A stretch of 56,299 bases of DNA, taken from the NCBI GenBank assembly GCA_003141555.1, contig PLMN01000032.1:931-57229 (forward strand), in the 5' to 3' direction. Position numbers and translations under genes: made by a program. This DNA comes from Candidatus Aminicenantota bacterium (GTDB lineage Bacteria > Acidobacteriota > Aminicenantia > Aminicenantales > UBA4085). Below are positions 19,672-55,931 of this stretch, one piece after another (the stretch's first letter is position 1; each line of letters begins with the position of its first letter). The notes below the pieces were generated by a model. That model was not told where the DNA came from, made no database searches, and saw only the letters and a list, made by a program, of their open reading frames with translations.

Positions 19672-19685
19672 TCGGGCATGCCCGA
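19672..19685 (+). promoter_or_regulatory. perfect palindrome enclosing the SpoIID start codon
   Basis: Fourteen bases, TCGGGCATGCCCGA, are their own reverse complement, with the ATG at 19678 in the centre. The AGGGG ribosome site lies just upstream and a 7-bp hairpin just before that. The palindrome could influence initiation or bind a dimeric regulator, or may be chance in GC-rich DNA. Confidence 0.3.
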
Positions 19686-21894
19686 GACCATGAAGCGCCA
19701 CGGAAAATTCTTTCTCCTCGCCTTCCTTGGCCTGTTCTTTTTCGGGGCCAGGCCCGAGGAGTTCGCCCGGGACAACGTCTTTTTCCAGGGGTTCCTCATC
19801 CAGAAGCCCGTCATCCGGATCGCCCTGGGCGTCAACGTGGAAGACGTCGAGATCCACGCCGCCTCAGGCATGAAGGTCTATCAGGTCAGCGGGAGCTATA
19901 AGCTCATGGCCGAGGATATCTCCGAGGTCAGGGTGAAAGGCCAAAAAGACAAGTTGAGCGAGAAATTCACCGTCCAGGCGGCCCAGTCGAGAAAGCGGGA
20001 GGATGCCGAGGACGAGGCCAAAACCCTCAAGGCGAAGATCGGCAAGCGGGTTTACGTCGCCCAGGACGCCAAGGACGACTTGGTCGGTGTTTATCAGGTC
20101 CGCGTCGGCGATTTTCTAACCCGGACCGACGCCCTGGATTGCATCAAGGAGCTGACCAAGCTCGGATACAAGGAAGCCTGGATCATCCGCGACGAGGTCA
20201 CCGAACCGACCACGAAGCCGCGATGGGTCCTGCTTAACGGGGAGCTGATCAACTTGAGCGCCGAAACCGCGCTCTATTTCATCCCGTCCACGCCCCAGAG
20301 CTACCTTGCCTATGGAGGCCGGAGCTACCGCGGAATCTTCGTCCTGCGCGGCAGCCGCCGGGGCATCCTCCTGATCAACATCCTGAACATCGAGGACTAC
20401 CTGCGGGGCGTGGTCCCCGGAGAGCTCTCTCCCTATATCTATCCCGAGCTCGAAGCCCAGAAAGCCCAGGCCGTCGCCGCCCGGACCTACGCCCTGAAAA
20501 ACACCGGCCAATTCGAGGAATTCGGGTTCGACCTGTACGCCACCCCGACCTCTCAGGTGTATGAAGGCCTGAGCATCGAGCATCCCCTCAGCTCCCAGGC
20601 CGTCGACGAGACCCGGGGAGAAGTGGCGGTTTACGCCGGCAAGCTCATCAACGCCCTTTACATGAGCACCTGCGGCGGCATGACCGAGGACGCCGAAGCC
20701 ATGTTCGAGGGGAACCCGGTGCCGTATCTCAAGGCGACGGAATGCGTTTACGAGAACGAGGAGGAATGGCAGGTCCGTGCGTCGGCCGTCCTCCCGGCCG
20801 TCATGTTCTCGGGCGTGAACGCCTCTCCGAAGCTCGCCCTGCTCATGGCCCTGGACGTCATCCCTTACACGGCGGACGCCGCGGCGTTCGGCGAGACGGC
20901 GGCCCCCGCGGAAACCGCGGAGTCGGTCCGGAAGGCGGCGGCCCTCCTCGGCAAGAAGGGAGAGAAGATCGGGACTCCCCCCTCCGTGATGAGCCATGCC
21001 GCCTTCGCCCGGCTCGTGGTCGACGGCTTCGAGTGGCAGGACCGCGTCCAGAACCTCCTCGGGAAGAGCGAGGCCGACCGGATTACGAGGGACATGACCG
21101 GGCTCAAGGCCGAGGAAAAAGGTGCCCTGACCTATTTCCTCGTCACCGGGATCTATCCGGACACCAAGGAAATCGGCGACAAGTCCCGGCCCTTGACCCG
21201 GGCCGAGGCGGGGTTCTATCTGGCTAAGGTCCTCGCGACCTACAAGGATTTCACCCACCAGGGATACATTAAGTCCGTTGCCAAGGACAAGATCGAGGTC
21301 ATTGAGGACAAGGAGAAAAAGTCCATCGATCTGGCCCCCAACCTGTTCGCGATTCTCGGGCAGGAAGACAGCCTGACCTTCGTCCCGACCCTCGACCTTT
21401 CGGGCGGCGACGTGGTGAAATGGGTTGAAAGCGCGGGCCGGATCCGGCTCCTCCAGGCGATCGTCCCGTCGCTCGGCAACATCCTCGACCAGGCCTCGCC
21501 GTTCCATCGTTGGCAGGTCCGAATCTCCCGGGAGGATCTCGAATCCCGGATCAACCAGTATTATCCGGTGGGGCCGCTCGTCGACGTCGTCCCCTTGAAG
21601 CGGGGGAAATCCAAGCGGGTCGTCGATGCGGCGATCATCGGCCGCGAGAGCCAGGTCCACGTCACCGGCCTCAAAATCCGCCAGGTCCTCAACCTCCGCG
21701 ACAACCTCTTCGTCGTCGACCGCGAGGTGGACGCGGACGGGCACCCGACCCATTTCGTCTTCTCGGGCAAGGGCTGGGGCCACGGGGTCGGCCTGTGCCA
21801 GATCGGCGCGTTTCGCATGGCCCAGGAGGGCGCGGCCTACGCCGACATCCTGAAAAAATATTACAAGGGGATCAAGCTCGAAAAGAAGTATTGA
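19678..21894 (+). CDS. SpoIID/LytB-domain exported protein with SPOR-like region
   Basis: The 738-residue protein has an N-terminal hydrophobic export signal (about 10-24), a SPOR-like segment (YQVRVGDFLTRTDALDCI, about 139-175) and a SpoIID/LytB domain. The catalytic Glu of the SpoIID family is E249 in GVVPGELSP, followed by AQAVAARTYALKN and STCGGMTEDAE. The C-terminal motif GKGWGHGVGLCQIGA is typical. SpoIID enzymes are lytic transglycosylases that cut peptidoglycan lacking stem peptides. The roughly 300-residue insertion between TECVYENEEEW and the final GWGHGVG part is larger than in spore proteins. In a non-sporulating bacterium a cell-wall remodelling or division role is likely. The alternative start is ATG 19690. 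Confidence 0.85.
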   Translation: MPETMKRHGKFFLLAFLGLFFFGARPEEFARDNVFFQGFLIQKPVIRIALGVNVEDVEIHAASGMKVYQVSGSYKLMAEDISEVRVKGQKDKLSEKFTVQAAQSRKREDAEDEAKTLKAKIGKRVYVAQDAKDDLVGVYQVRVGDFLTRTDALDCIKELTKLGYKEAWIIRDEVTEPTTKPRWVLLNGELINLSAETALYFIPSTPQSYLAYGGRSYRGIFVLRGSRRGILLINILNIEDYLRGVVPGELSPYIYPELEAQKAQAVAARTYALKNTGQFEEFGFDLYATPTSQVYEGLSIEHPLSSQAVDETRGEVAVYAGKLINALYMSTCGGMTEDAEAMFEGNPVPYLKATECVYENEEEWQVRASAVLPAVMFSGVNASPKLALLMALDVIPYTADAAAFGETAAPAETAESVRKAAALLGKKGEKIGTPPSVMSHAAFARLVVDGFEWQDRVQNLLGKSEADRITRDMTGLKAEEKGALTYFLVTGIYPDTKEIGDKSRPLTRAEAGFYLAKVLATYKDFTHQGYIKSVAKDKIEVIEDKEKKSIDLAPNLFAILGQEDSLTFVPTLDLSGGDVVKWVESAGRIRLLQAIVPSLGNILDQASPFHRWQVRISREDLESRINQYYPVGPLVDVVPLKRGKSKRVVDAAIIGRESQVHVTGLKIRQVLNLRDNLFVVDREVDADGHPTHFVFSGKGWGHGVGLCQIGAFRMAQEGAAYADILKKYYKGIKLEKKY

Positions 21895-21927
21895 TCCCCG
21901 TCGGGATTTTGATAATAATGAGGCGCC

Positions 21928-23208
21928 ATGGCCCATGCCTCCTCGAAATCGGGTTATGCGGAGCTCGTCAAGCGGCTGAACCGCTTTCCGCAGGGCGCGC
22001 CTCCCTCGGACCTCCTCAACAAGATTCTCGGCCTCCTTTTCAGCGAGCGCGAGGCGGCCCTCGTCGCCCTCCTGCCCATCAAGCCCTTCACCGCCGAGAC
22101 GGCGGCGCGCGCCTGGAAGATGAGCCTGGTCGAAACCCGGAAAGTGCTGGACGGCCTCTCCTCGCGGGCCATCCTCCTGGATATCGCCGGCCGGCGGCGA
22201 ACCTACTATGTCCTCCCGCCCCCCATGGCCGGGTTCTTCGAATTTTCGATGATGAGGACGCGGGGAGACGTCGACCAGAAGCTCCTGGCCGAGCTGTATT
22301 ACCAATACATCACCGTCGAGGAGGATTTCATCAAGGCTCTCTTCGTCCGGGGCGAGACCCAGCTCGGCCGGACGTTCGTCCACGAGCCGGTGGTGACCAA
22401 CGAGGACGCGCTCCACGTCATGGACTACGAGCGGGCGAGCGAGGTCATCCGGACGGCGTCCCACCGCGGGGTCGGGATGTGCTATTGCCGCCACAAGATG
22501 GATCACCTGGGGAAGGCCTGCTCCGCGCCGATGGACATCTGCCTGACCTTCAACACCACGGCCGCGTCCCTCATCCGGCACGGCTACGCCCGCTCCGTCG
22601 ACGTCGCGGAGGGGATGGATCTCCTCCGGCAGGCCTATGATCAAAACCTCGTCCAGTTCGGGGAGAATGTCCGGAAGCGGGTCAGCTTCATCTGCAACTG
22701 CTGCGGCTGCTGCTGCGAGGCGATGATCGCCGCCCGCCGGTTCGGGATTCTCCGCCCCGTCCACACGACGAATTTCGAGCCCGAGGTTCTGGAGACGTGT
22801 TCGGGCTGCGGCGACTGCGTCGCGGTCTGCCCGGTCGAGGCCATGAGCCTGGTCTCGGCCAACGACCCGGCCCACCCGAAGCGGAAGAAGGCCAAGCTGG
22901 ACGCGTCGGTCTGCCTGGGTTGCGGGATCTGCGTCCGGACGTGCCTCAAGACGAAAAGCCTCCGCTTGAGGCGGCGCGCCGGGCGGGTGATCACGCCCCT
23001 CAATTCGACCCACAAGGCCGTCCTCATGGCCATCGAGCGGGGAAACCTTCAGAACCTGATTTTCGACAATCAAGCGCTGGCCAGCCACCGGGCGATGGCC
23101 GCCGTCCTGGGCGTGATCCTCAAGCTCCCGCCTCTCAAGCAGGCGCTGGCCGGCCGCCAGCTCAAGTCCCGCTATCTGGACGCCCTGATCGAGAAATTGA
23201 AGCTCTGA
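21928..23208 (+). CDS. iron-sulfur protein with two 4Fe-4S ferredoxin clusters and N-terminal winged helix
   Basis: The 426-residue protein opens with a helical region resembling a winged helix (about 1-90). A cysteine group follows (MCYCRHKMDHLGKAC, FICNCCGCCC), then two ferredoxin cluster motifs, CSGCGDCVAVCP and CLGCGICVRTC. Similar fusions are annotated as 4Fe-4S binding proteins of unknown redox partner. Electron transfer is likely; the extra Cys group may hold another cluster or zinc. It lies 34 bases after the SpoIID gene on the same strand and converges on the threonine dehydrogenase gene. Confidence 0.8.
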   Translation: MAHASSKSGYAELVKRLNRFPQGAPPSDLLNKILGLLFSEREAALVALLPIKPFTAETAARAWKMSLVETRKVLDGLSSRAILLDIAGRRRTYYVLPPPMAGFFEFSMMRTRGDVDQKLLAELYYQYITVEEDFIKALFVRGETQLGRTFVHEPVVTNEDALHVMDYERASEVIRTASHRGVGMCYCRHKMDHLGKACSAPMDICLTFNTTAASLIRHGYARSVDVAEGMDLLRQAYDQNLVQFGENVRKRVSFICNCCGCCCEAMIAARRFGILRPVHTTNFEPEVLETCSGCGDCVAVCPVEAMSLVSANDPAHPKRKKAKLDASVCLGCGICVRTCLKTKSLRLRRRAGRVITPLNSTHKAVLMAIERGNLQNLIFDNQALASHRAMAAVLGVILKLPPLKQALAGRQLKSRYLDALIEKLKL

Positions 23209-23231
23209 GCGTCCCTTCCCGGGCGCCGGGT

Positions 23232-24212
23232 TCAGTAATTCAGGCGGCCTTCGGCGTGGCGCCGGGAGAGGACATCGAGCATGTCCTTGACCATGCCTTT
23301 CAGGTCGTAGGCGGGGTTCCAGCCCCATTCCTTCCGGGCGGCTGAATCGTCGATCGAGGTCGGCCAGCTGTCGGCGATGGCTTGCCGGAAGTCGGGCTTG
23401 TAGTCGACGGCGAAGTCGGGGATGTGGACCTTGATCTCGGCGGCGAGCTCGGCCGGCGTGAAGCTCATGGCCGCCAGGTTGAAGTCGGTGTGGTGGCGGA
23501 GCCGCCCGAAATCGGCCGCCATGAGCTCGGTCACGGATTTGAGGCAGTCGGGCATGTACATCATGGGCAGGCGCGAATCCTCGCGCAGGAAGCAGGTATA
23601 TCTCCGGTTCTTGACGGCTTCGTAGAAGATGGCGACGGCGTAGTCCGTCGTCCCCCCTCCGGGGAGGGTCTCGTGGCTGATGATCCCGGGGAAGCGGCAG
23701 CCGCGCACGTCGACATTGAACCGCCGGACGTAATAATCGGCCAGGAGCTCGCCGGCCACCTTCGTCACGCCGTACATGGTCTTGGGCCGGAGGATGGTCT
23801 CCTGGGGCGTGTTTTCGCGCGGCGTCTCGGGCCCGAAGGCGGCGATCGAGCTGGGGATGAAGATCCGGGACAGGGCGAGCTCTCGGGCGGTCTCCAGGAC
23901 GTTGTAGGTGCCGTTGATGTTGATGTTCCAAGCCAGCTGCGGGTTCTTTTCGCCGGTCGCCGAGAGGATGGCGGCCATGTGATAGATCGTGCCGACGTCG
24001 TACTTGCGCGCGACCTCCATGATCCGGTCCCGCCGGGTGACGTCGCAGAGCTCGAAGGGGCCGGATTCGCGAAGAGCCGGGTCGGACAGGGGCTGGATGT
24101 CGGTTGCGACGACGAGGGAATCCCCGTGCGCCCGGCGAAGGATCTTGAGAAGCTCCGTGCCGATCTGGCCGGACGCGCCGGTGAGCATGATGCGTGTCTT
24201 GGTGTTGGTCAT
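23232..24212 (-). CDS. L-threonine 3-dehydrogenase, SDR (epimerase-like) type
   Basis: The start is ATG 24212, which begins MTNTKTRIMLTGASGQIG with the NAD-binding glycine motif; the frame extends upstream without a sensible start. The 326-residue protein is an extended SDR with the catalytic Tyr-Lys in MYGVTKVAGE and Ser in IPSSIAAFG. The segment SHETLPGGGTTDYAV is characteristic of the SDR-type threonine dehydrogenases of bacteria and Thermoplasma and separates them from sugar epimerases. It oxidises threonine to 2-amino-3-ketobutyrate with NAD+, the substrate of the KBL enzyme encoded at 16.1-17.4 kb. Confidence 0.88.
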   Translation of the reverse strand: MTNTKTRIMLTGASGQIGTELLKILRRAHGDSLVVATDIQPLSDPALRESGPFELCDVTRRDRIMEVARKYDVGTIYHMAAILSATGEKNPQLAWNININGTYNVLETARELALSRIFIPSSIAAFGPETPRENTPQETILRPKTMYGVTKVAGELLADYYVRRFNVDVRGCRFPGIISHETLPGGGTTDYAVAIFYEAVKNRRYTCFLREDSRLPMMYMPDCLKSVTELMAADFGRLRHHTDFNLAAMSFTPAELAAEIKVHIPDFAVDYKPDFRQAIADSWPTSIDDSAARKEWGWNPAYDLKGMVKDMLDVLSRRHAEGRLNY

Positions 24213-24300
24213 GTGAACGTCTCGATCTCCGATGATGATGATGGCCTGGATAAGATGAAATCCCCTTATAACATAGCGAATATTTGAAATCAAACGCCGG

Positions 24301-25050
24301 ATGGGTGATACTAGTCTCGAAATGAGTCCATCGAACAAAGAGAGAATCGCCCTGGTCACGGGCGCGGGGAGGGGCCTGGGGCGGGAAATCGCGCGGGCCC
24401 TCGCCGCGGCCGGGGCGGCCGGCGTGGCGGTCCATTATCTCCGCGACCGGGCGGCCGCCGAAGAGACGGCGCGCGCCGTCCGGGCCGAGGGCGCCGAGGC
24501 GTTCGTCCTTCGCGCCGATCTCACCCGCGAGCGGCAGGCCGAATCGCTCTTGGGGCGGGTCGAACGCCGATTCGGCCGCGTGGACATCCTGGTGAACAAC
24601 GTCGGCCCGATCCTCATGAAGCCCTGGGCCGAGCTGACGGCTGCGGACTGGACCGGGATGTTCCAATCCGTGCTCGAGAGCGCCTTCCTGGGCATGAAGG
24701 CCGCCTTGCCCGGGATGCGCGGCCGGGGATGGGGGCGGATCGTCAACATCGGCTACAGCCGGGCCGAGCAGCTCGTCGCGTTTCCGACCATCGCCGCCTA
24801 TGCCGCCGCCAAGACCGGACTTCTCATTCTGACCCGTACCGCGGCCGCGTCCGAGGCCGGGTCGGGCGTCACGATCAACATGGTCTCGCCCGGGCTCTTG
24901 GAGGGCGGGCGGCTGCCGGCCGGGTCGATCCCCCGCCGAGCCCTGGGGACCTATGCCGACGTGGCGAAGGCCGTCCGTTTCCTGGCTTCCGAGGATGCCG
25001 GCGCGATCACGGGCACGAATCTCATCGTGGCCGGAGCCTGGAAGATGTAG
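24301..25050 (+). CDS. short-chain dehydrogenase/reductase (FabG-like)
   Basis: The 249-residue classical SDR has cofactor motif TGAGRGLG, NNVGP, a catalytic YAAAK with an upstream NIGYS Ser, and the C-terminal GTNLIVAGAW. The substrate is not evident; FabG-like acyl reductases and sugar dehydrogenases share this layout. NNVGP instead of NNAG is a variant seen in some branches. The alternative start is ATG 24322, and the 88-base gap to the divergent threonine dehydrogenase gene contains the start region. There is no adjacent fatty-acid cluster. Confidence 0.82.
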   Translation: MGDTSLEMSPSNKERIALVTGAGRGLGREIARALAAAGAAGVAVHYLRDRAAAEETARAVRAEGAEAFVLRADLTRERQAESLLGRVERRFGRVDILVNNVGPILMKPWAELTAADWTGMFQSVLESAFLGMKAALPGMRGRGWGRIVNIGYSRAEQLVAFPTIAAYAAAKTGLLILTRTAAASEAGSGVTINMVSPGLLEGGRLPAGSIPRRALGTYADVAKAVRFLASEDAGAITGTNLIVAGAWKM

Positions 25051-44391: not shown

Positions 44392-44454
44392 CTCGATGCA
44401 TGTAATCGGGGGTGCGATTACCGAAAATGCCAAAGGCCGCCGACTAAATCATAA

Positions 44455-46992
44455 ATGCCGAATAAAGAAGCCGCGGCCCGGATCAAGATCAACAAACTGC
44501 TCGAAGCGGCGAGTTGGCGCTTCTTTCCGGACGGCGGCGTGCCGGCCAACATCTGCCTCGAATCCGCTACTAAAATCAAATGGTGCGATCTGGACGCGCT
44601 CGGCGAGAACTTCGAAAAGACGAAGAACGGGTTCATTGATTTCCTCCTCCTCGACGCCAAAGGCTTTCCGTTCATCGTCCTTGAGGCAAAATCGGAGGAT
44701 AAAAGCCCTCTCGTCGGCAAAGAACAGGCCCGCAAATACGCTCGCGCCCAGAACTGCCGCTTCGTCATCCTCTCCAACGGCAACCTGCACTATTTCTGGG
44801 ACTAGGAACGCGGCAATCCCTACCTCATCACATCCTTCCCGACGCCCGATTCGGTGAACGGCTACCGGCAGATCACTCCAAACCCGCAGCGCCTCATCGA
44901 TGATCTGATCGGTGACGATTACATCGTCCTGACCCAGCGTCCCAATTACCAGTCCGAGGCCGCGTATCGCAACGAATCCGATCGCCCCGCCTATATCCAG
45001 GCCAACAAGCTCTGCTTCCTGCGCCCCTATCAGCTGAAAGCCATTCATGCCCTCCAGCGCGCGGTGAAGGATGGCAAGGACCGCTTCCTCTTCGAGATGG
45101 CGACCGGCACGGGCAAGACGCTCACGGCCGCGGCCGTCATCAAGCTCTTTCTCCGGTCCGGCAACGCTCGCCGCGTCCTCTTCCTCGTCGACCGCCTCGA
45201 GCTCGAAAATCAGGCGCTCAAAGCCTTCAAGGGGCTGCTGGCCGCGGATTTCAAGACCGTTATCTACAAAGAAAACCGCGACGATTGGCGCCGCGCAGAA
45301 ATCGTCGTCACCACCGTCCAGTCCCTTCTTTCCGACAACAAATATCAGCGTTTCTTTTCGCCGACCGATTTCGATCTCGTGATATCCGACGAGGCCCACC
45401 GCTCCATCGGCGGCAACGCCCGCGCCGTCTTCGACTATTTCATCGGCTACAAGCTCGGCCTCACCGCCACGCCCCGCGACTACCTCAAGAAAATCGACCC
45501 ATCCGGCCATAACGTTCGCGATCCCCGCGAGCTCGAGCGCCGCCTTCTTCTCGACACCTACCGTACCTTCGGCTGCGAGAACAGCCAGCCCACCTATCGT
45601 TATTCGCTGCTCGACGGCGTGAAGGAAGGCTACCTCATCAATCCTACGGTCGTCGACGCCCGCACCAACATCACGACCGAGCTGCTCTCCAAGCAGGGCT
45701 TCATCGTCTCTTTCACCGGCGACGACGGCGAGGACAAGCAGGAATCCTTCGAGCATACCGACTTCGAGAAGCGCTTCTTCTCCGACGCGACCAACCAGCT
45801 CTTCTGCAAGACCTTCCTGGAAAACGCCCTGCGCGATCCCGTTTCCGGCGAAATCGGCAAGTCGATCATCTTCGGCGTCAGCCAGAACCATGCGGCCAAG
45901 CTGGCCCAGATCCTCAACCAGATGGCCGACCGCATGTTCCCCGGCAAATATCAGTCCGACTTCGCCGTCCAGGTCACCTCGCAGATTCCCGACGCCCAGC
46001 AGTTCACCATCAACTTCGCCAACAACAACCTGATGGGCTCGGGCAACTTCCTGCCCGCCTACAAGACCAGCAAGGCGCGCGTCTGCGTGACGGTCGGCAT
46101 GATGACCACGGGCTACGACTGCACCGACATCCTCAACCTCGGCCTGTTCCGGCCGATTTTCTCGCCGACCGATTTCATCCAGATCAAGGGCCGCGGCACC
46201 CGCAAACACAACTTCCTCGAACAGCTTTTCGACGAAGGCCTCAAGGACGCCGTCAAGGATCCACGAAAGAAGGCCTTCAAGCTCTTCGATTTCTTCGCCA
46301 ATTGCGAATACTTCGAAGAGAAGTTCTGCTACGACGAAATCCTGAAGCTCCCGCGCCTCGCCGCGAAGGGGAAAGGGGAGGGGGCCGACGGCTCCGTCAT
46401 AATCCCCGGCACTTACGACCACCAGGGCCCGGACCTTATTTCTCGTATCACCGAACAAGCCGTCGGCCCCGAGGGCATGAAGATCGACCGCATGTTCTTC
46501 GAGAAATTCGAGGACACCGTCCGCGAGAATAGAATCATCGCCACCGCCGTCGAAGCCGGCCAATGGGACCGGGTCATCGACTACGTCAACCGGGAAGTCT
46601 TCGACAAGCCCGAGGAGTATTACAACCTCGAGAAGCTCCGCAAATCCGCCGCCGCGGACCGGCGCCTGACCCTGCGCGAGATCCTCGAGAAGATCTTCGG
46701 CCTCATCCCGCGCTTCAAGTCCAAGGACGAGCTGCTCGAGGAGGAGTTCGCCAAGTTCGTCGCCGACGCCAAGCCCACGGAAGCTGAAGCGATCCCGGCG
46801 ATCAAGACCTTTTTCAAGGCCTATGTCACTAGCGACAAGGTGCGCGACATCATCGAGAGCAAGGACTTCACCGATCTGGCCACTAATCCCGCCTTTTCCA
46901 CCCGCGACTTCAAGGCCGTGCCCGCGAAATACCGCACGCTCATCCCCGAATACGTCAAAGATTACGTCCCGCTGAACCAGTTCGCCGCTTAG
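44455..46992 (+). CDS. hsdR: type I restriction endonuclease subunit HsdR, interrupted by an in-frame amber codon
   Basis: One frame of 845 codons plus stop encodes HsdR, except for a single TAG at 44803-44805 (codon 117, after LHYFWD and before ERGNPYLI). Before it is the complete nuclease core: D62 in GFIDFLLL and E77-x-K79 in VLEAKSED. After it are the helicase motor (MATGTGKTLTAAA, SDEAHRS, GRGTRKHN) and the C-terminal helical part. GTG 44854 or later could restart translation. The result is either a dead enzyme, a split nuclease plus motor pair, or one that depends on read-through. HsdR cuts unmodified DNA after ATP-driven translocation with HsdM and HsdS, encoded just downstream (26-base gap). 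Confidence 0.85.
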
Positions 46993-47017
46993 AGGCCGCC
47001 TAAAGCAAAGGACCGAC

Positions 47018-49519
47018 ATGCTCGATACCGATACCAAGCGCCGCATCGACACCGCCCGCGACATCCTCGTCGGCAAAGTGCCCGATCCCAAGAGCCAGGT
47101 CGAGCAGATCACCATCGCCCTGATCTACAAGTTCATGGACGACATGGACGCCGAGAGCGAGGAGTTCGGCGGGAAGCGCAAGTTCTTCGCCCGCGAATTC
47201 GCCCGCTACGGCTGGGCCAAGCTCATGCGCTCCGGCCTGGGCGGCCACGAGACGCTGAACCTCTATGCCGAGGCCATCGCCAAGATGCCGGAAAACCCCG
47301 GCATCCCGCCGCTCTTCCGCGACATCTTTAAGAACGCTTATCTGCCCTACCGCGATCCCGAGACACTGCGCGCCTTCCTCAAGGTCATCGACGAGTTCAC
47401 CTACGACCACTCCGAGCGCCTCGGCGATGCCTTCGAGTATTTGCTCTCCGTGCTCGGCTCCCAGGGCGATGCCGGCCAGTTCCGGACGCCGCGCCACATC
47501 ATCGATTTCATGGTCGAAATCGTCGATCCCAAGAAGACCGAGACCGTGCTCGACCCGGCCTGCGGCACCGCCGGATTCCTGATCTCGTCCTACAAGCACA
47601 TCCTCAAGGCCAACACCGACGCCAAAGGCAACAGCACCCTGACGCCCGACGAAAAGAGCCGCCTCGCACGGAACTTCACGGGCTACGACATCTCGCCCGA
47701 CATGGTCCGCTTGTCGCTCGTGAACCTATATCTGCACGGCTTCGCCGACCCACACATTTACGAGTACGATACCCTCACCAGCATGGACCGCTGGAACGAA
47801 TATGCCGACGTGATCCTCGCCAATCCGCCCTTCATGTCGCCGAAAGGCGGCATCAAGCCCCACAACCGTTTTTCGGTTCAGTCCAAACGCAGCGAAGTGC
47901 TGTTTGTGGACTACATGGCTGAGCACCTCACGCCCAACGGCCGCGCGGGCATTATCGTGCCTGAGGGGATCATCTTCCAAAGCCAGACAGCTTATAAGCA
48001 ACTGCGCAAGATGCTGGTTGAGGAGTATCTCGTCGCCGTCGTCTCGCTTCCGGCGGGCGTATTCAATCCTTATTCTGGCGTGAAGACTTCGATATTGATT
48101 CTCGATAAGTCATTGGCCAAGAAGGCCAACACCATCGCCTTCTTCAAGGTTGAGAACGACGGCTTTGGCCTTGGTGCCCAAAGGCGGGAGATTGAGAAGA
48201 ACGATCTGCCCCAAGCTCGAGCCGCGATCAGCGAATACCTTCGCCAGGTGCGGGCGGGGGAATTGGCCGAGGGATTCAAGCCAACCCTTGGGCAGATTGT
48301 CGAAAAGCTTAAGGTTTCATCCAATGGCGAGTTCAACCTAGGCGGGGAGCGATATAGGCAGGCAATAGCGTACAGTCACGTTTTTCCGTTGGTGAGGATC
48401 GGCGACATATGCGAAATCAACCCACCCAAAAGCCAATTGGCCGAGTTGCCGCCTGATACAAGTGTTTCGTTCGTGCCAATGGCAGATCTAAACGAACACC
48501 GCATAACATTCCAACCCAGTGAAGAGAAGCGTCTTTCTGAAGTATCGGCCGGCTACACTTACTTTGAAGAAAACGATATTCTTCTCGCAAAAGTGACGCC
48601 TTGCTTCGAGAACGGGAAGGCAGGCATAGCGCGGAGTCTCCAAAATGGGATCGGATTCGGTTCTAGCGAGTTTTATGTTTTACGACCGACTAGCCAGGTT
48701 CTACCTGAGTGGATTTATTTTTGCGTGACGCATCCATTGTTTAGAGATGCTGCCATCGCCAAAATGACTGGAACCGGCGGGCTGCAACGCGTTCCAAAAA
48801 GTTATATTGTAAACTTTCAGATTCCCCTGCCGCCTCTACCGGTACAGAAGAAAATCGTGGCTGAGATCGAGGGCTACCAGAAAGTCATCGACGGCGCCCA
48901 CGCAGTTATTGAAAACTACCACCCCCACATTCCTATCCACCCCGACTGGCCAATCGTGTCACTTGAAGAAATATGCGAGATCATGCGGGGCAAATTCTCT
49001 TATCGCCCGAGAAACGAACCCAGATTTTATGGCGGCAAATATCCGTTCATTCAAACTGGCGACATCGTTCGGGCTAACGGCGGGAAGATAGCCTACACGC
49101 AAACTCTAAATGAGGAAGGGCTTTCAGTGAGTAAGTTGTTTCAACCGCCCATAGTTGTGATTTCGATTGCAGCGAATATCGGAGACACTGCCGTTCTCGA
49201 CTTTCCATCATGTTTTCCCGACAGCGTTGTCGGTCTAATTCCAAAGGACGTAGTAGATGCCCACTTCTTGGAATTGGCCATGCGGACAAAAAAGCAATAT
49301 CTGAACGATATCGCGCCGCAAGCAGCGCAGAAAAACATCAATATTGAGATTCTGCGAACTGTTAAGATTCCTATTCCACCTCTCGCCACGCAACAAGCCA
49401 TCGTAGCCGAGATCGAAGCCGAGCAAGCTCTTGTCGCGGCCAACCGCGAGCTGATTGCGCGCTTTGAGAAAAAGATTCAAAACACTCTTGCCCGCATCTG
49501 GGGGCAGGATAACCAATAA
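47018..49519 (+). CDS. fused type I methyltransferase and specificity subunit (HsdM-HsdS)
   Basis: The 833-residue protein joins HsdM and HsdS, normally separate. HsdM part: N-terminal helical domain, SAM motif DPACGTAGF (179-187) and catalytic NPPF (269-272), which marks N6-adenine methylation. HsdS part from about residue 455: two target recognition domains (about 460-600 and 640-785) split by the conserved helix IVAEIEGYQKVIDGAHAVI and closed by IVAEIEAEQALVAANRELI. The two recognition domains are visibly AT-richer than the conserved helices and the HsdM half, a sign of recognition-domain exchange. Recognition sequence is unknown. AAAGGA precedes the ATG. Confidence 0.92.
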   Translation: MLDTDTKRRIDTARDILVGKVPDPKSQVEQITIALIYKFMDDMDAESEEFGGKRKFFAREFARYGWAKLMRSGLGGHETLNLYAEAIAKMPENPGIPPLFRDIFKNAYLPYRDPETLRAFLKVIDEFTYDHSERLGDAFEYLLSVLGSQGDAGQFRTPRHIIDFMVEIVDPKKTETVLDPACGTAGFLISSYKHILKANTDAKGNSTLTPDEKSRLARNFTGYDISPDMVRLSLVNLYLHGFADPHIYEYDTLTSMDRWNEYADVILANPPFMSPKGGIKPHNRFSVQSKRSEVLFVDYMAEHLTPNGRAGIIVPEGIIFQSQTAYKQLRKMLVEEYLVAVVSLPAGVFNPYSGVKTSILILDKSLAKKANTIAFFKVENDGFGLGAQRREIEKNDLPQARAAISEYLRQVRAGELAEGFKPTLGQIVEKLKVSSNGEFNLGGERYRQAIAYSHVFPLVRIGDICEINPPKSQLAELPPDTSVSFVPMADLNEHRITFQPSEEKRLSEVSAGYTYFEENDILLAKVTPCFENGKAGIARSLQNGIGFGSSEFYVLRPTSQVLPEWIYFCVTHPLFRDAAIAKMTGTGGLQRVPKSYIVNFQIPLPPLPVQKKIVAEIEGYQKVIDGAHAVIENYHPHIPIHPDWPIVSLEEICEIMRGKFSYRPRNEPRFYGGKYPFIQTGDIVRANGGKIAYTQTLNEEGLSVSKLFQPPIVVISIAANIGDTAVLDFPSCFPDSVVGLIPKDVVDAHFLELAMRTKKQYLNDIAPQAAQKNINIEILRTVKIPIPPLATQQAIVAEIEAEQALVAANRELIARFEKKIQNTLARIWGQDNQ

Positions 49520-49576: not shown

Positions 49577-50446
49577 ATGAGAAAAAAACCGTTTTATTCT
49601 GTTAGGACTGGTAAAAATCCGTTGTCTGCGCACTTTGATTTTGTAACTCTCAAAGAGCTCTTTAAAAATATCTTCGTACACTTCGAGGATGAAGGCTACT
49701 TTCAAGAGGCGCTTGGATTTGATTGTGTTGATTCTGGTTTCATTGCGGGTGCATTGGGCCATGACCTTGCAGGTACTCTGCTCCTGGAGTTGCGGAAAAA
49801 AGATCTAACTCCGATCAGAACTAGGATCGAATATTATTCCGAAGACGACCTTTTCGACATTATCGAATTTCTGTACGAAAACTGCTCGAAGCCTGTTAAG
49901 CGCCACTATCATAGTTACAGTGATTGTGGTTGGCATTGTGAAACTTTTGATCGCGAACTAGGACGCCAGGAATATCGCGAGAAAATTAATAGTGTCCTTG
50001 CAGTATATGAACGTGGATACGAGCTCTCTTTCGATGGCGAGCTTATGGGTAAGGCCGATTCGGGGCTTGAAAAACTCCTTGATGCGCCGTTGCCACCCTA
50101 CGATCCAGATAATATCTCTGCAAGAGTCGAGGCGGCAAAGCTCAAATTCTTGAGATATCGATCATCAATGGATGAGCGGCGAGATGCAATTCGAGATTTG
50201 GCGGATGTCCTGGAATATCTTAGGCCAAAACTTAAAAAAGCCATAACGGCAAAGGATGAAGATGATCTTTTCAATTTGGCGAATAACTTTGGCATCAGGC
50301 ACCATAATTTAAAGCAAAAAACTGGATATGATAAACCGATATGGTACAGTTGGATGTTCTATTATTATTTAGCTACCATTCATGCGGGAGTCCGACTAAT
50401 TGAACGGCTTGAGTCACAGTGCTCTAAAGTCGGGAAGATAAAGTAA
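49577..50446 (+). CDS. AbiJ/HEPN-like putative abortive-infection protein
   Basis: The 289-residue protein has an N-terminal region resembling the AbiJ N-terminal type 4 domain (DIIEFLYENCSKPV, GRQEYREKINSVLAVYERGY). A helical C-terminal region contains NNFGIRHHNLKQKTGYDKP followed by a hydrophobic helix; the Arg-His-His cluster is the likely HEPN-type ribonuclease site. Such proteins act in phage-triggered cell arrest. It is 57 bases after the restriction genes and AT-rich. I recognise the family only by pattern, so the family name is provisional; the context (restriction system before, DUF262 and AIPR after) supports a defence role. Confidence 0.55.
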   Translation: MRKKPFYSVRTGKNPLSAHFDFVTLKELFKNIFVHFEDEGYFQEALGFDCVDSGFIAGALGHDLAGTLLLELRKKDLTPIRTRIEYYSEDDLFDIIEFLYENCSKPVKRHYHSYSDCGWHCETFDRELGRQEYREKINSVLAVYERGYELSFDGELMGKADSGLEKLLDAPLPPYDPDNISARVEAAKLKFLRYRSSMDERRDAIRDLADVLEYLRPKLKKAITAKDEDDLFNLANNFGIRHHNLKQKTGYDKPIWYSWMFYYYLATIHAGVRLIERLESQCSKVGKIK

Positions 50447-50518
50447 TGAAGGAAGATCAATAGCCTTGAATAATCTTCAACGCATAAAGGCGTAAGCTTA
50501 TTTAGCTGAAGGTGATAA

Positions 50519-51199
50519 ATGAAACGCGGAGAGAGCATCAAGGCGCTATTGCGGAAGGTAAATAAGGACCTAGCCGAATTACATACTGTATATGAAACAT
50601 CCCTTCATGATGAGCATGTCAATGAGGAATTGAAGATTGCAATAAAAAATATATTCGAAAACCTACGTTCATGTTTAGATTATTTAGCTCAAGAAATTTA
50701 TGAAGTATTTTGGGGCATTGAAAAGAAGCCTGAACGACTTTATTTTCCTATACGCTCAACGGCAAGTAATTTCAATCAGGCAATCGAGAATGATTTTCCA
50801 GAATTACCCAAAAAGTCAAAAGCGGTGTTCGATATTCTAGAAGCAGTGCAACCTTATAGGGATCCTTGGCTTGGGCAATTCAACAGGCTAAATAATTACA
50901 ATAAGCATCAAGATCTTGTCGAGCAAACCCGGACCGAAATGAGACAGGTCAAGGTTTCGCGCGGCGAAGGCTCTGTTAGTTGGGGCCCCGGCGTGACATT
51001 TGGTTCGGGGGTAAGTATTTTGGGTGTTCCCATCGATCCTAGAACCCAGATGCCAGTCCCTAATACAATCGCGAAAACTGAAGTAAATATTTGGGTGGAC
51101 TTTAAATTCAGAGAGATAGATCAGTCAGTCCTTCCCTTTTTGCAATTATCGCTGCAGAAAGTAGAGAAAATATTCCGAGATCTAGAGGCTTACATTTAA
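50519..51199 (+). CDS. helical hypothetical protein, possible HEPN-like
   Basis: The 226-residue protein begins with a long helical region containing NIFENLRSCLDYLAQEIYE and a later FNRLNNYNKHQDLV. The pair of an Arg-rich helix with Asp and a conserved N-x-x-N-K-H resembles the HEPN-like helical proteins often found in defence islands, but the R-x4-H catalytic pair is not certain. The C-terminal third is beta-rich with a glycine stretch (SWGPGVTFGSGVSI). I do not assign a function. It lies 72 bases after the AbiJ-like gene and 81 bases before the DUF262 gene, with GCGGAGAG near the start. Confidence 0.5.
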   Translation: MKRGESIKALLRKVNKDLAELHTVYETSLHDEHVNEELKIAIKNIFENLRSCLDYLAQEIYEVFWGIEKKPERLYFPIRSTASNFNQAIENDFPELPKKSKAVFDILEAVQPYRDPWLGQFNRLNNYNKHQDLVEQTRTEMRQVKVSRGEGSVSWGPGVTFGSGVSILGVPIDPRTQMPVPNTIAKTEVNIWVDFKFREIDQSVLPFLQLSLQKVEKIFRDLEAYI

Positions 51200-51280
51200 T
51201 GGCTACCATATCGTTCCGGCAGATCGTTTACCGCGGTCGCCCGATGAAAGACGTTAAAAACAGTTTGGAGCAAAAATAAA

Positions 51281-52981
51281 ATGGAATACATTCCAGTTCG
51301 AGTTAGCGATATTATCCGGCAAGTAAATCATGACATCTATTTACCAGCTATCCAGCGCGAATTTACCTGGGGTACCGACCGCGTTGAGCGATTATTCGAC
51401 TCAATCATGGCCGATTTTCCTATCGGCTCTTTTCTGTTTTGGCGACTTGAGCAGAAGAATAAAGACGAGTGGCCGATTTATGAATTTGTGAGGGAATTCG
51501 ACGCAGAATTTCCTCATAATCGTCTTGCGAACATGGCTGGAATCACTAAGGATATCACCCTCGTCCTTGATGGACAGCAAAGAATCACATCGCTTTCAAT
51601 CGGTCTGCGAGGCTCATTTCGGTTTTTTCACTACCGCTGGAAAAAGACCCGGCTCTATTTGAACCTATTGAAACCGGCTATGCCAAATGATGATAACCCA
51701 GAAGAACTGACATATGGCTTCTCTTTTCGAGAAAGTCCCGAATCAGATGGTGTAACGCCGCAGCTTTGGTACTTGGTTGGGCGAATTCTGGACTATGAAG
51801 ACGCCGAAGATGCAAAATTAGATATGAAGCAACAACTAGCGGTGTTATCAGAAGAACAGCGAGATAACGCTAACAAGCTTATTGGTCGATTGCACAACCG
51901 AATCCATACAACACTCGTTGGCAACTATTTTATGGAGAAGTCTCAAGACTATGAAAAGGTATTAGAAATCTTCGTGCGGGCCAATTCAGCGGGACAGCCG
52001 CTTGAGTACTCTGATCTTTTACTAGCTACTGCCACTGCAAAATGGGAGACTTTGGACGCCCGCAGCGAAATCCATAATTTCACCGATTCGCTCAACGAGC
52101 TCGGCAATGGATATAGCTTTGGCAAAGACTTTGTACTGAAGGCTTGCCTTTACCTCAGCGAGAACCTGCCGATCCAATATAAAGTCAAGAACTTCACGAG
52201 AAAGAACCTACGAATTATCGAAGGTAATTGGGAGCAAGTTAAGGACTATCTTTCGACGACGATACGGCTTATAGCCCGCTTTGGTTTTAACGCCAAGAAT
52301 GTTGTTGCCCCCCTTGCGTTGCTGCCAATCGCATTCTACCTAATGAAGCGTGGCAACTCCTCTTTCGATAAATCCTCCAGGGCGGAAGACGCCGATACGC
52401 AGATCGCCATTCGAAAATGGTTTATCTTTTCAACACTCAAGAATGCTTTTGGCGGTTCGTCTGACACAACATTGACTCGGCTGCGAGAATTATTGAACAA
52501 TTGCGATCCCACGAAATCGTTTCCTTCCGAGATTCTTTATAGGTCGCTGGAAATCGAGCCTCGACTTAATGACGCTGAAATCGATCGTATTATGGGCTAT
52601 GGATATCAAGGCCGCTACACCTATCTCGTTTTATCGTTACTCTACCCTGACCGAGATTGGAAAGATGCAATTTTTCATGAGGATCACATTTTTCCAAAGT
52701 CTGAGTTTCAGGTACGGTCCTTAAAGAAACGAGAATACGATGAAACGAAGATTCTATCCTATATGTCAAAATACAACATCCTTTCCAACCTTCAATTGCT
52801 TACAGATAACGAGAATATTTCGAAAAACGCGACGCCATTTGACGAATGGATTCAAACGCGAGAAATAATGTTTCGCAAACGTCATCTAATTCCAGATCTC
52901 CCGAGCTTCGGGTTTGACAACTTTGAAGAGTTCTCTAAAGCCCGGACTGCCCTGATCGAGGCAGAGCTGAAGAAACTATAG
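51281..52981 (+). CDS. DUF262/HNH protein, GmrSD-like type IV restriction enzyme
   Basis: The 566-residue protein has an N-terminal DUF262 domain (ParB/sulfiredoxin-like) with YLPAIQREFTW and the signature DGQQRITSL (97-105). Its C-terminal domain carries FHEDHIFPKSEF (about 464-475), the His-Asp-His core of an HNH nuclease like DUF1524/GmrD. GmrSD enzymes cut glucosylated or otherwise modified phage DNA in a nucleotide-dependent way. The single-chain form is common. The next gene, AIPR family, starts 41 bases after the stop, so the two may be co-expressed. Confidence 0.85.
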   Translation: MEYIPVRVSDIIRQVNHDIYLPAIQREFTWGTDRVERLFDSIMADFPIGSFLFWRLEQKNKDEWPIYEFVREFDAEFPHNRLANMAGITKDITLVLDGQQRITSLSIGLRGSFRFFHYRWKKTRLYLNLLKPAMPNDDNPEELTYGFSFRESPESDGVTPQLWYLVGRILDYEDAEDAKLDMKQQLAVLSEEQRDNANKLIGRLHNRIHTTLVGNYFMEKSQDYEKVLEIFVRANSAGQPLEYSDLLLATATAKWETLDARSEIHNFTDSLNELGNGYSFGKDFVLKACLYLSENLPIQYKVKNFTRKNLRIIEGNWEQVKDYLSTTIRLIARFGFNAKNVVAPLALLPIAFYLMKRGNSSFDKSSRAEDADTQIAIRKWFIFSTLKNAFGGSSDTTLTRLRELLNNCDPTKSFPSEILYRSLEIEPRLNDAEIDRIMGYGYQGRYTYLVLSLLYPDRDWKDAIFHEDHIFPKSEFQVRSLKKREYDETKILSYMSKYNILSNLQLLTDNENISKNATPFDEWIQTREIMFRKRHLIPDLPSFGFDNFEEFSKARTALIEAELKKL

Positions 52982-53022
52982 AATTACTTTGACCCATCTT
53001 AAGAAAGATTAGAGGTAGAAAT

Positions 53023-54795
53023 ATGGTAATCACTGATCGCGATATTGATCAAGCGTTTTCGGATCTCAAACAAACTTGCGGAGGAGTCCGCAACGACTAC
53101 TTTGGCCTTTTATATATAGAGAAAGAATTTGGCGTCGAACGCGATCGAGCTATAGCCAACGTCGCTTTTGGCGGAAATGACTACGGAGTCGATGGGTTCC
53201 ATTTCGATTATGAACGGCGCAATCTTTATCTATTCCAATTCAAGTATTCAGATTCGCACGCACAGTTCAAGTCGTCGTTTACCAGGCTTATCGATGCCGG
53301 CATGGAGCGCATTTTTGGAGCACAAAGCCAAGATCAACTACAGAATCAGCTATTACTTCAGATCAAGAGCTGTCTAATCCACAATGAAGCGGTTATAGAT
53401 CGAGTCTGTATTCACTTTGTGTTCACTGGCGATCCAGCGGACGCTGAGCGAAGTCAGGTACTTGATAAGCTACGTGAGGACTTGGAGAACAAAAAGTACC
53501 TTATCGATCAGCGCCTCGGTCGGCCTGTCACACTCGTTATCGAATTTCGATCAGCGCGAACTCGCAAGGTCAGCCCGACGACTCATCTCCGAAAGACGCA
53601 TACTTATCCCGTTCAACTTGACCAGACCGTGACACGGACCGGACCGAACGGCGAGAGCATGAGAATTGGATTTATCCGGCTTGTAGATCTAGACGCGATG
53701 TATCGGGAAATGGGCCAGCGGTTTTACGAGCGGAACATCAGAGCCGCATTACCGGAGTATGAAGCCGTCAATCGATCTATCCAGCAATCTCTCAAGCGAA
53801 TTATAATTGATGAGAAGGAAGATGCAGCTGTCTTCGCTTTTAACCATAACGGCGTAACTCTCTTTGCCGAGGCGCTGAGCCAGATAGACACTCAGTTTCA
53901 GATCACCGAGCCACGCCTCCTAAACGGTGCTCAGACGGTAACCACGTTCTCGAGATTCCTGAAGGCGAACGAAGGCAATAATCTTTTAACACGGCAAAAA
54001 AGTGTACTTCAATCTGTCCGTGTATTGTGCCGTATTATCACTAACGCTCTTCCGGAGTTTGTCACAACCGTCACGATTAACAATAATCGTCAAAACCCGG
54101 TTGATCCGTGGAATCTTCATGCGAACGATATGATCCAGCTTGAGATACAGGATAAATTTCTTAATGATTTGAAAATTTACTATGCGCGTCAGGAGCGGGC
54201 ATTTGAAAATTTAAGCGATGAAGATCTGGAAGAACAGGGTATTACTGGGTACAAGGCTATTGAGTTAATCCGACTTGCACGCACGTTTCTTGTAAGCGAC
54301 GGCGAAGTTGATAAACTTTCGCGGTTCCGTGATGTATTCGAAGATGATCGAATTTATAGCCAGGTTTTCAATCAAAATCGGGTTAGGGCAGACTCCCGCA
54401 AAATACTCCTTTGCTACAAAATTCAGTTTCGAATTGGGCGCCTTGCAAAGGACATAGTAGATAAGGGCTCGAACAAATATGCTTATGTACAGCGCGCAAG
54501 AAACTTGCTATGGGCACTTCTTTGTCAGGCGATCCTGAATGATCCAAAGCTCGAGGATTACGCTGAGGAGTTTGGACGTGGGCTCAGTCTCGAAGCCCAA
54601 TATACAGAGTGGCTTTCTGGCTTAGCAACCACCCGGTGCCGCTTCATCTTGTCGGATCTTGTCGAGGATAAGTTATACGCACCTAAAGCAGCCGAGGGAA
54701 ACTTCAGTTTCATGCGGACAAACGCCGCTTACAAACGCTCAATGGAGATTGCGTACAAACGCTTTCATTGGGTGGAGATGCATTTGAATAGGTAA
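53023..54795 (+). CDS. AIPR-family abortive-infection protein
   Basis: The 590-residue protein contains at the N terminus FGGNDYGVDGFHFD followed by NLYLFQFKYS, with Asp57, Gln72 and Lys74 in the arrangement of a PD-(D/E)xK-type nuclease. The central part has the AIPR pattern (FYERNIRAALPEYEAVN, FAFNHNGVTLFAEAL, LLNGAQTVTTF, TVTINNNRQNPV). AIPR proteins block phage growth at a cost to the cell in some systems; the mechanism is not settled. GTAGAAAT precedes the ATG. It follows the DUF262 gene and is low-GC. Confidence 0.85.
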   Translation: MVITDRDIDQAFSDLKQTCGGVRNDYFGLLYIEKEFGVERDRAIANVAFGGNDYGVDGFHFDYERRNLYLFQFKYSDSHAQFKSSFTRLIDAGMERIFGAQSQDQLQNQLLLQIKSCLIHNEAVIDRVCIHFVFTGDPADAERSQVLDKLREDLENKKYLIDQRLGRPVTLVIEFRSARTRKVSPTTHLRKTHTYPVQLDQTVTRTGPNGESMRIGFIRLVDLDAMYREMGQRFYERNIRAALPEYEAVNRSIQQSLKRIIIDEKEDAAVFAFNHNGVTLFAEALSQIDTQFQITEPRLLNGAQTVTTFSRFLKANEGNNLLTRQKSVLQSVRVLCRIITNALPEFVTTVTINNNRQNPVDPWNLHANDMIQLEIQDKFLNDLKIYYARQERAFENLSDEDLEEQGITGYKAIELIRLARTFLVSDGEVDKLSRFRDVFEDDRIYSQVFNQNRVRADSRKILLCYKIQFRIGRLAKDIVDKGSNKYAYVQRARNLLWALLCQAILNDPKLEDYAEEFGRGLSLEAQYTEWLSGLATTRCRFILSDLVEDKLYAPKAAEGNFSFMRTNAAYKRSMEIAYKRFHWVEMHLNR

Positions 54796-55109
54796 GGTGT
54801 AACACTATGAATCTTCAATTATTACAGAGGACGGGGGAGCCGTCTTAGTCTATCGGGCAAGAAGAATTTGGGCGTGGATCGGTCTGAGACTTCCCCGAAA
54901 GGTTATAGCCCTGACTTCGCGCACTGGCAATAATATTTGCGGATAAGTTCCCTTGTGGTGCTTCAATTTCGGAAGTCAAGCAACATATTCATTCTAAATG
55001 CAATAACTTTATATTGCGGGCCGATTTTTCTTCCTTCCAAACCGTAGTCTAAGTGGATTGTGATATAATTAAAACAATCTGAGCGTCTTATCATAAATGG
55101 AGAGAAGAA
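54796..55109 (+). other. 314-base intergenic region, no gene
   Basis: The stretch is AT-rich in its second half. A short open run ending SPDFAHWQ and TAA (about 54840-54930) has no start and is probably chance or a worn fragment. The only firm element is the extended -10 promoter near its end. Confidence 0.5.
55061..55069 (+). promoter_or_regulatory. extended -10 promoter of the Ntn-hydrolase/toxin operon
   Basis: TGATATAAT is an extended -10 (TG-n-TATAAT) with TATAAT at 55064-55069. No good -35 is seen, as is usual for such promoters. The ATG at 55110 lies 40 bases downstream. Confidence 0.55.
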
Positions 55110-55931
55110 ATGTCGTTGGGTATCGCATTTAAGGGCCCGGAGGGAATCGTATTGGCGGCCGATAGCCGTGTCACTTTGAATGCGGAAATAACCAGGGGCA
55201 CAGAAAAGATCATTCTCCCGTCGACGTTCGATAATGCTACGAAGCTACTGAGGTTTCAAGGCCATAACTATGTAGGGGCTGTGACCTATGGCGCCGGAGC
55301 GATCGGCGGTAGGGCGCCCCGCACGGCACATAGCTTTCTTCCCGAATTTGAACGTGAATTGGCCCAAAAAAAGACCGAACGAATTCCTGTTGAGCAATTT
55401 GCGGGAATTCTGAGTAAATTCTTTCTCGAACGATGGGAAGAATCTAGAAGTGATGCGCCTCAAAATGCCGATATGATATTTCTCATCGGCGGATTCGATG
55501 CCGACGCGCCTTATGGCCGCGTGTTTCAGTTTGCAATTCCCGGCTCTCCGAAGCCCGTCGAACAACAAATCGGCGAATTCGGATTGACCTGGGGGGGACA
55601 GTTGGGCTATACCTCACGCCTCATCAAGGGGATGGATCCTCAGCTACCGGCGTTGGTTCAGAGACATCTTGGATTATCCGATAAACAGAACGAAGATCTG
55701 TCCAGGTTCCTGGAATCTGAATTGTCGCTCAGAATTCCCTATCAATTCCTTCCGTTGCAAGACTGCGTCGATCTCGCAATTTTCTTGATTCGTACCAGTA
55801 TCGAAATTCAGACTTGGCTTATCGATATCAGGGGAGTAGGGGGGGCCATAGACGTTGCAACGATAACGCGTACCGAAGGATTCCAGCCCATCCAGCAGAA
55901 GGCGATCGTCGGCCAAAGGACGAGAGTCTAA
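55110..55931 (+). CDS. proteasome-like Ntn hydrolase with N-terminal Ser
   Basis: The 273-residue protein opens MSLGIAFKGPEGIVLAADSR. If Met is removed, Ser2 takes the place of catalytic Thr1 of the proteasome beta subunit: counted from it, Asp17, Arg19 and Thr21 of VLAADSRVT fall exactly in position, and a Lys in NATKLLRF (K45) matches Lys33 after an 11-residue insertion. A GAVTYGAGAIGG strand-turn corresponds to the Gly47 oxyanion region. It is longer than HslV (about 175) with a C-terminal helical extension. No Clp, HslU or Mpa-type ATPase is nearby. The TAA stop overlaps the AAGGAG of the next gene, so it is coupled to the putative antitoxin and MazF genes. Confidence 0.75.
   Translation: MSLGIAFKGPEGIVLAADSRVTLNAEITRGTEKIILPSTFDNATKLLRFQGHNYVGAVTYGAGAIGGRAPRTAHSFLPEFERELAQKKTERIPVEQFAGILSKFFLERWEESRSDAPQNADMIFLIGGFDADAPYGRVFQFAIPGSPKPVEQQIGEFGLTWGGQLGYTSRLIKGMDPQLPALVQRHLGLSDKQNEDLSRFLESELSLRIPYQFLPLQDCVDLAIFLIRTSIEIQTWLIDIRGVGGAIDVATITRTEGFQPIQQKAIVGQRTRV

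Follow-up and report, generated by a model that had tools for sequence, protein, structure and literature searches.

HsdM and HsdS together suffice for type I methylation, and a type I enzyme that lacks its motor can neither translocate nor cut. The described type I HsdRs, among them V. vulnificus HsdR (3h1t), EcoR124I HsdR (2w00) and the EcoAI/FtnUII family, place a nuclease with PD-(D/E)xK motifs ahead of that motor. The name 'Type IMS' has been proposed for an HsdM-HsdS fusion that works with a separate HsdR, the named example having been engineered from EcoKI (PMC3510504). Strains of Mycoplasma agalactiae with a disrupted hsdR retain type I methylation (PMC9465063), and a truncated hsdR has been found in S. 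epidermidis (PMC6918075).

We analysed a stretch of 56,299 nucleotides (the window) from contig PLMN01000032.1 of a Candidatus Aminicenantota bacterium, which carries a cassette of two genes, hsdR and hsdMS (Table 1). Together they encode the features of a type I restriction-modification (R-M) system: a PD-(D/E)xK nuclease with an SF2 motor, an N6-adenine methyltransferase and target recognition domains (TRDs). The HsdR resembles that of V. vulnificus in sequence (E 4e-30) and in nuclease fold (Z 14.5), and has the same nuclease-motor order and motifs as the other type I HsdRs, but is interrupted by TAG at codon 117. It scores 212.7 bits against an NCBIfam EcoAI/FtnUII cut-off of 550, and thus represents a related but distinct HsdR family. 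As in Type IMS, HsdM and HsdS form one polypeptide, of 833 aa and with two TRDs, and hsdR is separate, although the fusion here is natural. Like M. agalactiae PG2, the locus combines an intact methylation unit with an hsdR that is disrupted; the PG2 lesion, however, consists of 2 nt inserted into a poly(A) tract and could phase-vary (PMC9465063), whereas the lesion here is a point nonsense codon at a site with no such tract. We consider it probable that hsdR of this cassette was recently inactivated by a nonsense mutation, leaving methylation only. A preliminary description of this DNA had proposed a point nonsense mutation beside an intact methyltransferase, with a harmless methylation-only state, and this is still the best supported reading.

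A single amber codon in an otherwise intact hsdR

Codon 117 is the sole internal stop in the 845-codon frame (...TTC TGG GAC TAG GAA CGC GGC...), which is otherwise intact, as the preliminary description had stated. The frame is colinear over its full length with intact proteins of ~845 aa (75-85% identity), and Pfam places HSDR_N_2 5' of the stop and ResIII/DEAD 3' of it, making the identity of the gene firm. The sequence encoded by the 728 codons past the stop is up to 86% identical to homologues, and thus the continued open frame is not due to chance. An 888-aa antisense open frame (window 44449-47115, - strand) also spans the whole of hsdR; given the homology on the + strand, it probably results from the high GC3 (0.83) of the codon usage. 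Elsewhere in the window, a 1516-aa open frame (20116-24666, - strand) overlaps the + strand ORFs 19678-21894 and 21928-23208.

Table 1. Features of the hsdR-hsdMS cassette, in window positions
Feature	Position	Strand	Basis
hsdR, whole frame of 845 codons, start ATG 44455, terminal TAG 46990-46992	44455..46992	+	Frame reading
hsdR 5' part, 116 codons; PD-(D/E)xK nuclease domain minus its final ~25-30 residues, ending at TAG	44455..44805	+	HSDR_N_2 at 56-116; 3h1t fold match
Amber codon 117 of hsdR; column is Leu in 82/82 scored relatives	44803..44805	+	Frame reading, alignment
Remainder of hsdR, 728 codons, terminal TAG: end of nuclease domain, SF2 helicase/translocase motor, C-terminal part	44806..46992	+	Pfam, relatives
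First possible in-frame restart past TAG: GTG, V134; no Shine-Dalgarno	44854..44856	+	Frame reading
hsdMS, 833 aa, intact: fusion of N6-adenine methyltransferase and a specificity part with two TRDs	47018..49519	+	Pfam, motifs

The partner gene shows no comparable damage. HsdMS matches Pfam N6_Mtase and two stretches of Methylase_S, the motifs NPPF and DPACGTAGF are visible, and none of 198 near-invariant HsdM columns deviates in the window copy, in agreement with the earlier claim that the methyltransferase part is intact. Forty relatives encode hsdMS full length in one frame, and an hsdMS homologue is found at 76 of the 84 loci with a relative of hsdR, some of these loci ending too early to show one. 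The hsdMS of one relative, L034, is 99% identical to the window across hsdM residues 1-116 and 55% identical, in another frame, over the rest, and is either mosaic or frameshifted. Downstream of hsdMS lies a defence island (49577-55931). It holds two ORFs without Pfam matches, of which the first matches PDC-S32 weakly, together with a GmrSD_N protein that is a HEC-05 candidate (E 4e-181) and an AIPR/AbiU protein. None of its genes was found at the loci of the relatives.

Position of the stop in the nuclease fold

The nuclease core residues D62, E77 and K79 were found where the preliminary description had placed them, and are followed by a QxxxY motif (Q91-Y95). A full-length AlphaFold2 model of HsdR was set aside (mean pLDDT 51), and we used a model of the N-terminal 200 residues, built with relatives but leaving out a plasmid-derived one (pLDDT 76.5). 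The match of this model to the 3h1t nuclease domain extends over residues 1-146, and that to EcoR124I HsdR over residues 1-142 (Z 8.2). In the model, codon 117 falls between predicted strands 112-116 and 123-125, inside the C-terminal hairpin of the nuclease fold. Thus, besides the motor, the stop would remove the last stretch of the nuclease domain. The earlier statement that it lies exactly at the nuclease/helicase boundary is thus not right: all catalytic motifs precede it, but the nuclease fold continues to about residues 140-146.

With the catalytic nuclease motifs all before the stop and the helicase motifs all after it, the gene might encode a true two-peptide enzyme whose nuclease and motor are made separately and assemble, as the preliminary description had suggested. 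The position of the stop alone tells little, since, of all possible substitutions that create a stop in such a gene, about 12-14% lie in the interval from the last nuclease motif to the motor in any case. The cut, moreover, would separate two strands of the nuclease fold, and no relative is split at codon 117. The first possible restart, the GTG in Table 1, lies 48 bases past the TAG, so the residues between the two would be lost, and it has no Shine-Dalgarno sequence before it, only CCTTCCCGACGCCCGATTCG upstream. We regard a two-peptide enzyme as extremely improbable.

Relatives, selection and the origin of the stop

Scanning one genome for each species yielded 80 close relatives, drawn from many phyla, and a genome search added more. 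In the comparison with relatives proposed earlier, column 117 is leucine, encoded by CTG (34), CTC (27), CTT (12), TTG (4), TTA (3) or CTA (2), in all 82 relatives that could be scored, and a stop in none of them. One more distant relative has methionine there. Six matches from a phylum-wide search had no internal stops, no close copy was found in the same-genus genomes searched, and within this genome (33 contigs, 3.79 Mb) we found no second close hsdR copy able to complement the first.

Broken hsdR copies are not rare: they occur, at differing sites, in a small part of the family. Three relatives carry independent single lesions, a TAG at codon 516 (L052), a TAA at codon 99 (L068) and, in L006 (G025:C16), the loss of codons ~130-567, the motor region, the two ends lying in different frames. 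A further relative (L053) seemed to be without the nuclease part, but its upstream sequence is masked as N. One unannotated relative (L159) aligns in two pieces on E. coli plasmid CP057768 (3647-8275 and onward). This type of hsdR, 65% identical, is carried on E. coli IncF plasmids and is followed there by a methylase of 677 aa, shorter than the hsdMS of 833 aa, and by an SMC-like gene. Of 5426 complete E. coli genomes, 77 have close copies, in every case on a plasmid.

The preliminary description derived the stop from one base change, TTG to TAG. This is possible, as L034, at 82% the relative closest in nucleotide identity, has TTG at column 117, one step from TAG, but it is unproven. The commonest codon among relatives, CTG, is two steps away, and the 75 other leucines of the window hsdR are encoded only by CTC, CTG and CTT. 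As the gene never uses TTG for these, a two-step change from CTG to TAG is also plausible.

The same codons bear on whether the TAG is fixed at all. The genome is an assembly in 33 contigs, 97.4% complete and 2.3% contaminated, and there is no decay near the stop, as might be seen if the TAG were an error of consensus or assembly, or a strain polymorphism collapsed into one assembled genome. Starting from CTG, however, two adjacent bases would have to be wrong, and no other similarly broken gene was noticed in an unsystematic look through the window. We think it unlikely that the stop is unfixed.

Selection on hsdR was assessed by pairwise pN/pS and a conserved-column test. Against the nearest relatives, pN/pS ranges from 0.17 to 0.24 for the nuclease part and from 0.16 to 0.22 for the motor, within the 5-95% ranges of 1299 relative pairs (0.11-0.27 and 0.13-0.28, respectively). 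Such normal values fit a recent stop, and fit equally well a gene that works by read-through or a stop that is unfixed. Of 59 near-invariant nuclease columns, 2 deviate in the window hsdR, a count tied for second highest of 81 (median 0); after the nuclease part, 4 of 334 do. This is a slight sign of relaxed selection, and little signal would be expected if the stop is recent.

Recoding and the expected state of the cassette

No recoding machinery is visible in the genome. A covariance-model search recovered 45 tRNAs (genome 97% complete), with anticodons read by ARAGORN; none carries CUA, and tRNA-Ile(GAU) and tRNA-Ala(UGC) were unseen, so that the set falls slightly short of complete. Thus, the check for an amber suppressor tRNA proposed in the preliminary description came back negative. 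In whole-genome family searches RF1 is present above its cut-off, and all matches to PylS fall below theirs. TAG terminates 9 of the 38 window ORFs in a mechanical list, hsdR itself being among the TAG-ending genes.

tRNAs of the tRNA-Gln(CUG) type can suppress UAG weakly, and one is encoded within the window. Low-level read-through could yield a little full-length HsdR, the stop acting as a dampener or switch on restriction. The hsdR frame and selection on it are intact either side of the stop, and it has been proposed that bacterial genes under purifying selection can be read through at in-frame stops (PMC7918605). On the other hand, there is no CUA tRNA and RF1 is present, the RNA 3' of the stop folds no better than shuffled sequence (z +0.5 to +1.9), and none of the relatives shares the stop. 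These observations disfavour the read-through switch raised earlier, and we judge such a role of the stop quite improbable. That the amber codon holds HsdR at a trace level by read-through, for a mostly methylation-only state with residual restriction, is in our view very improbable. Neither recoding nor a two-peptide enzyme has positive support.

Under the preferred reading, inactivation by a nonsense mutation, the change at codon 117 would have struck hsdR in a mobile cassette of hsdR and fused hsdMS. Translation would halt after a 116-residue fragment that keeps the catalytic motifs in an incomplete nuclease fold. Without a motor there would be neither translocation nor cutting, while the HsdMS, complete as judged from its sequence, most likely still methylates its target. 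With the motor absent and HsdMS complete, the locus would be restriction-off and methylation-on. Methylation without restriction is the likely state, as HsdM and HsdS suffice for it and hsdR-disrupted strains with active methylation are known (PMC9465063).

A restriction gene broken by a stop beside an intact partner methyltransferase is a well-known kind of event. This locus adds one type I R-M cassette that may have been caught soon after restriction loss, with its methyltransferase seemingly intact, and carries little weight alone. It also shows the need to consult relatives first when hsdR of an assembled genome contains a stop codon, and only then to propose a split enzyme or recoding.
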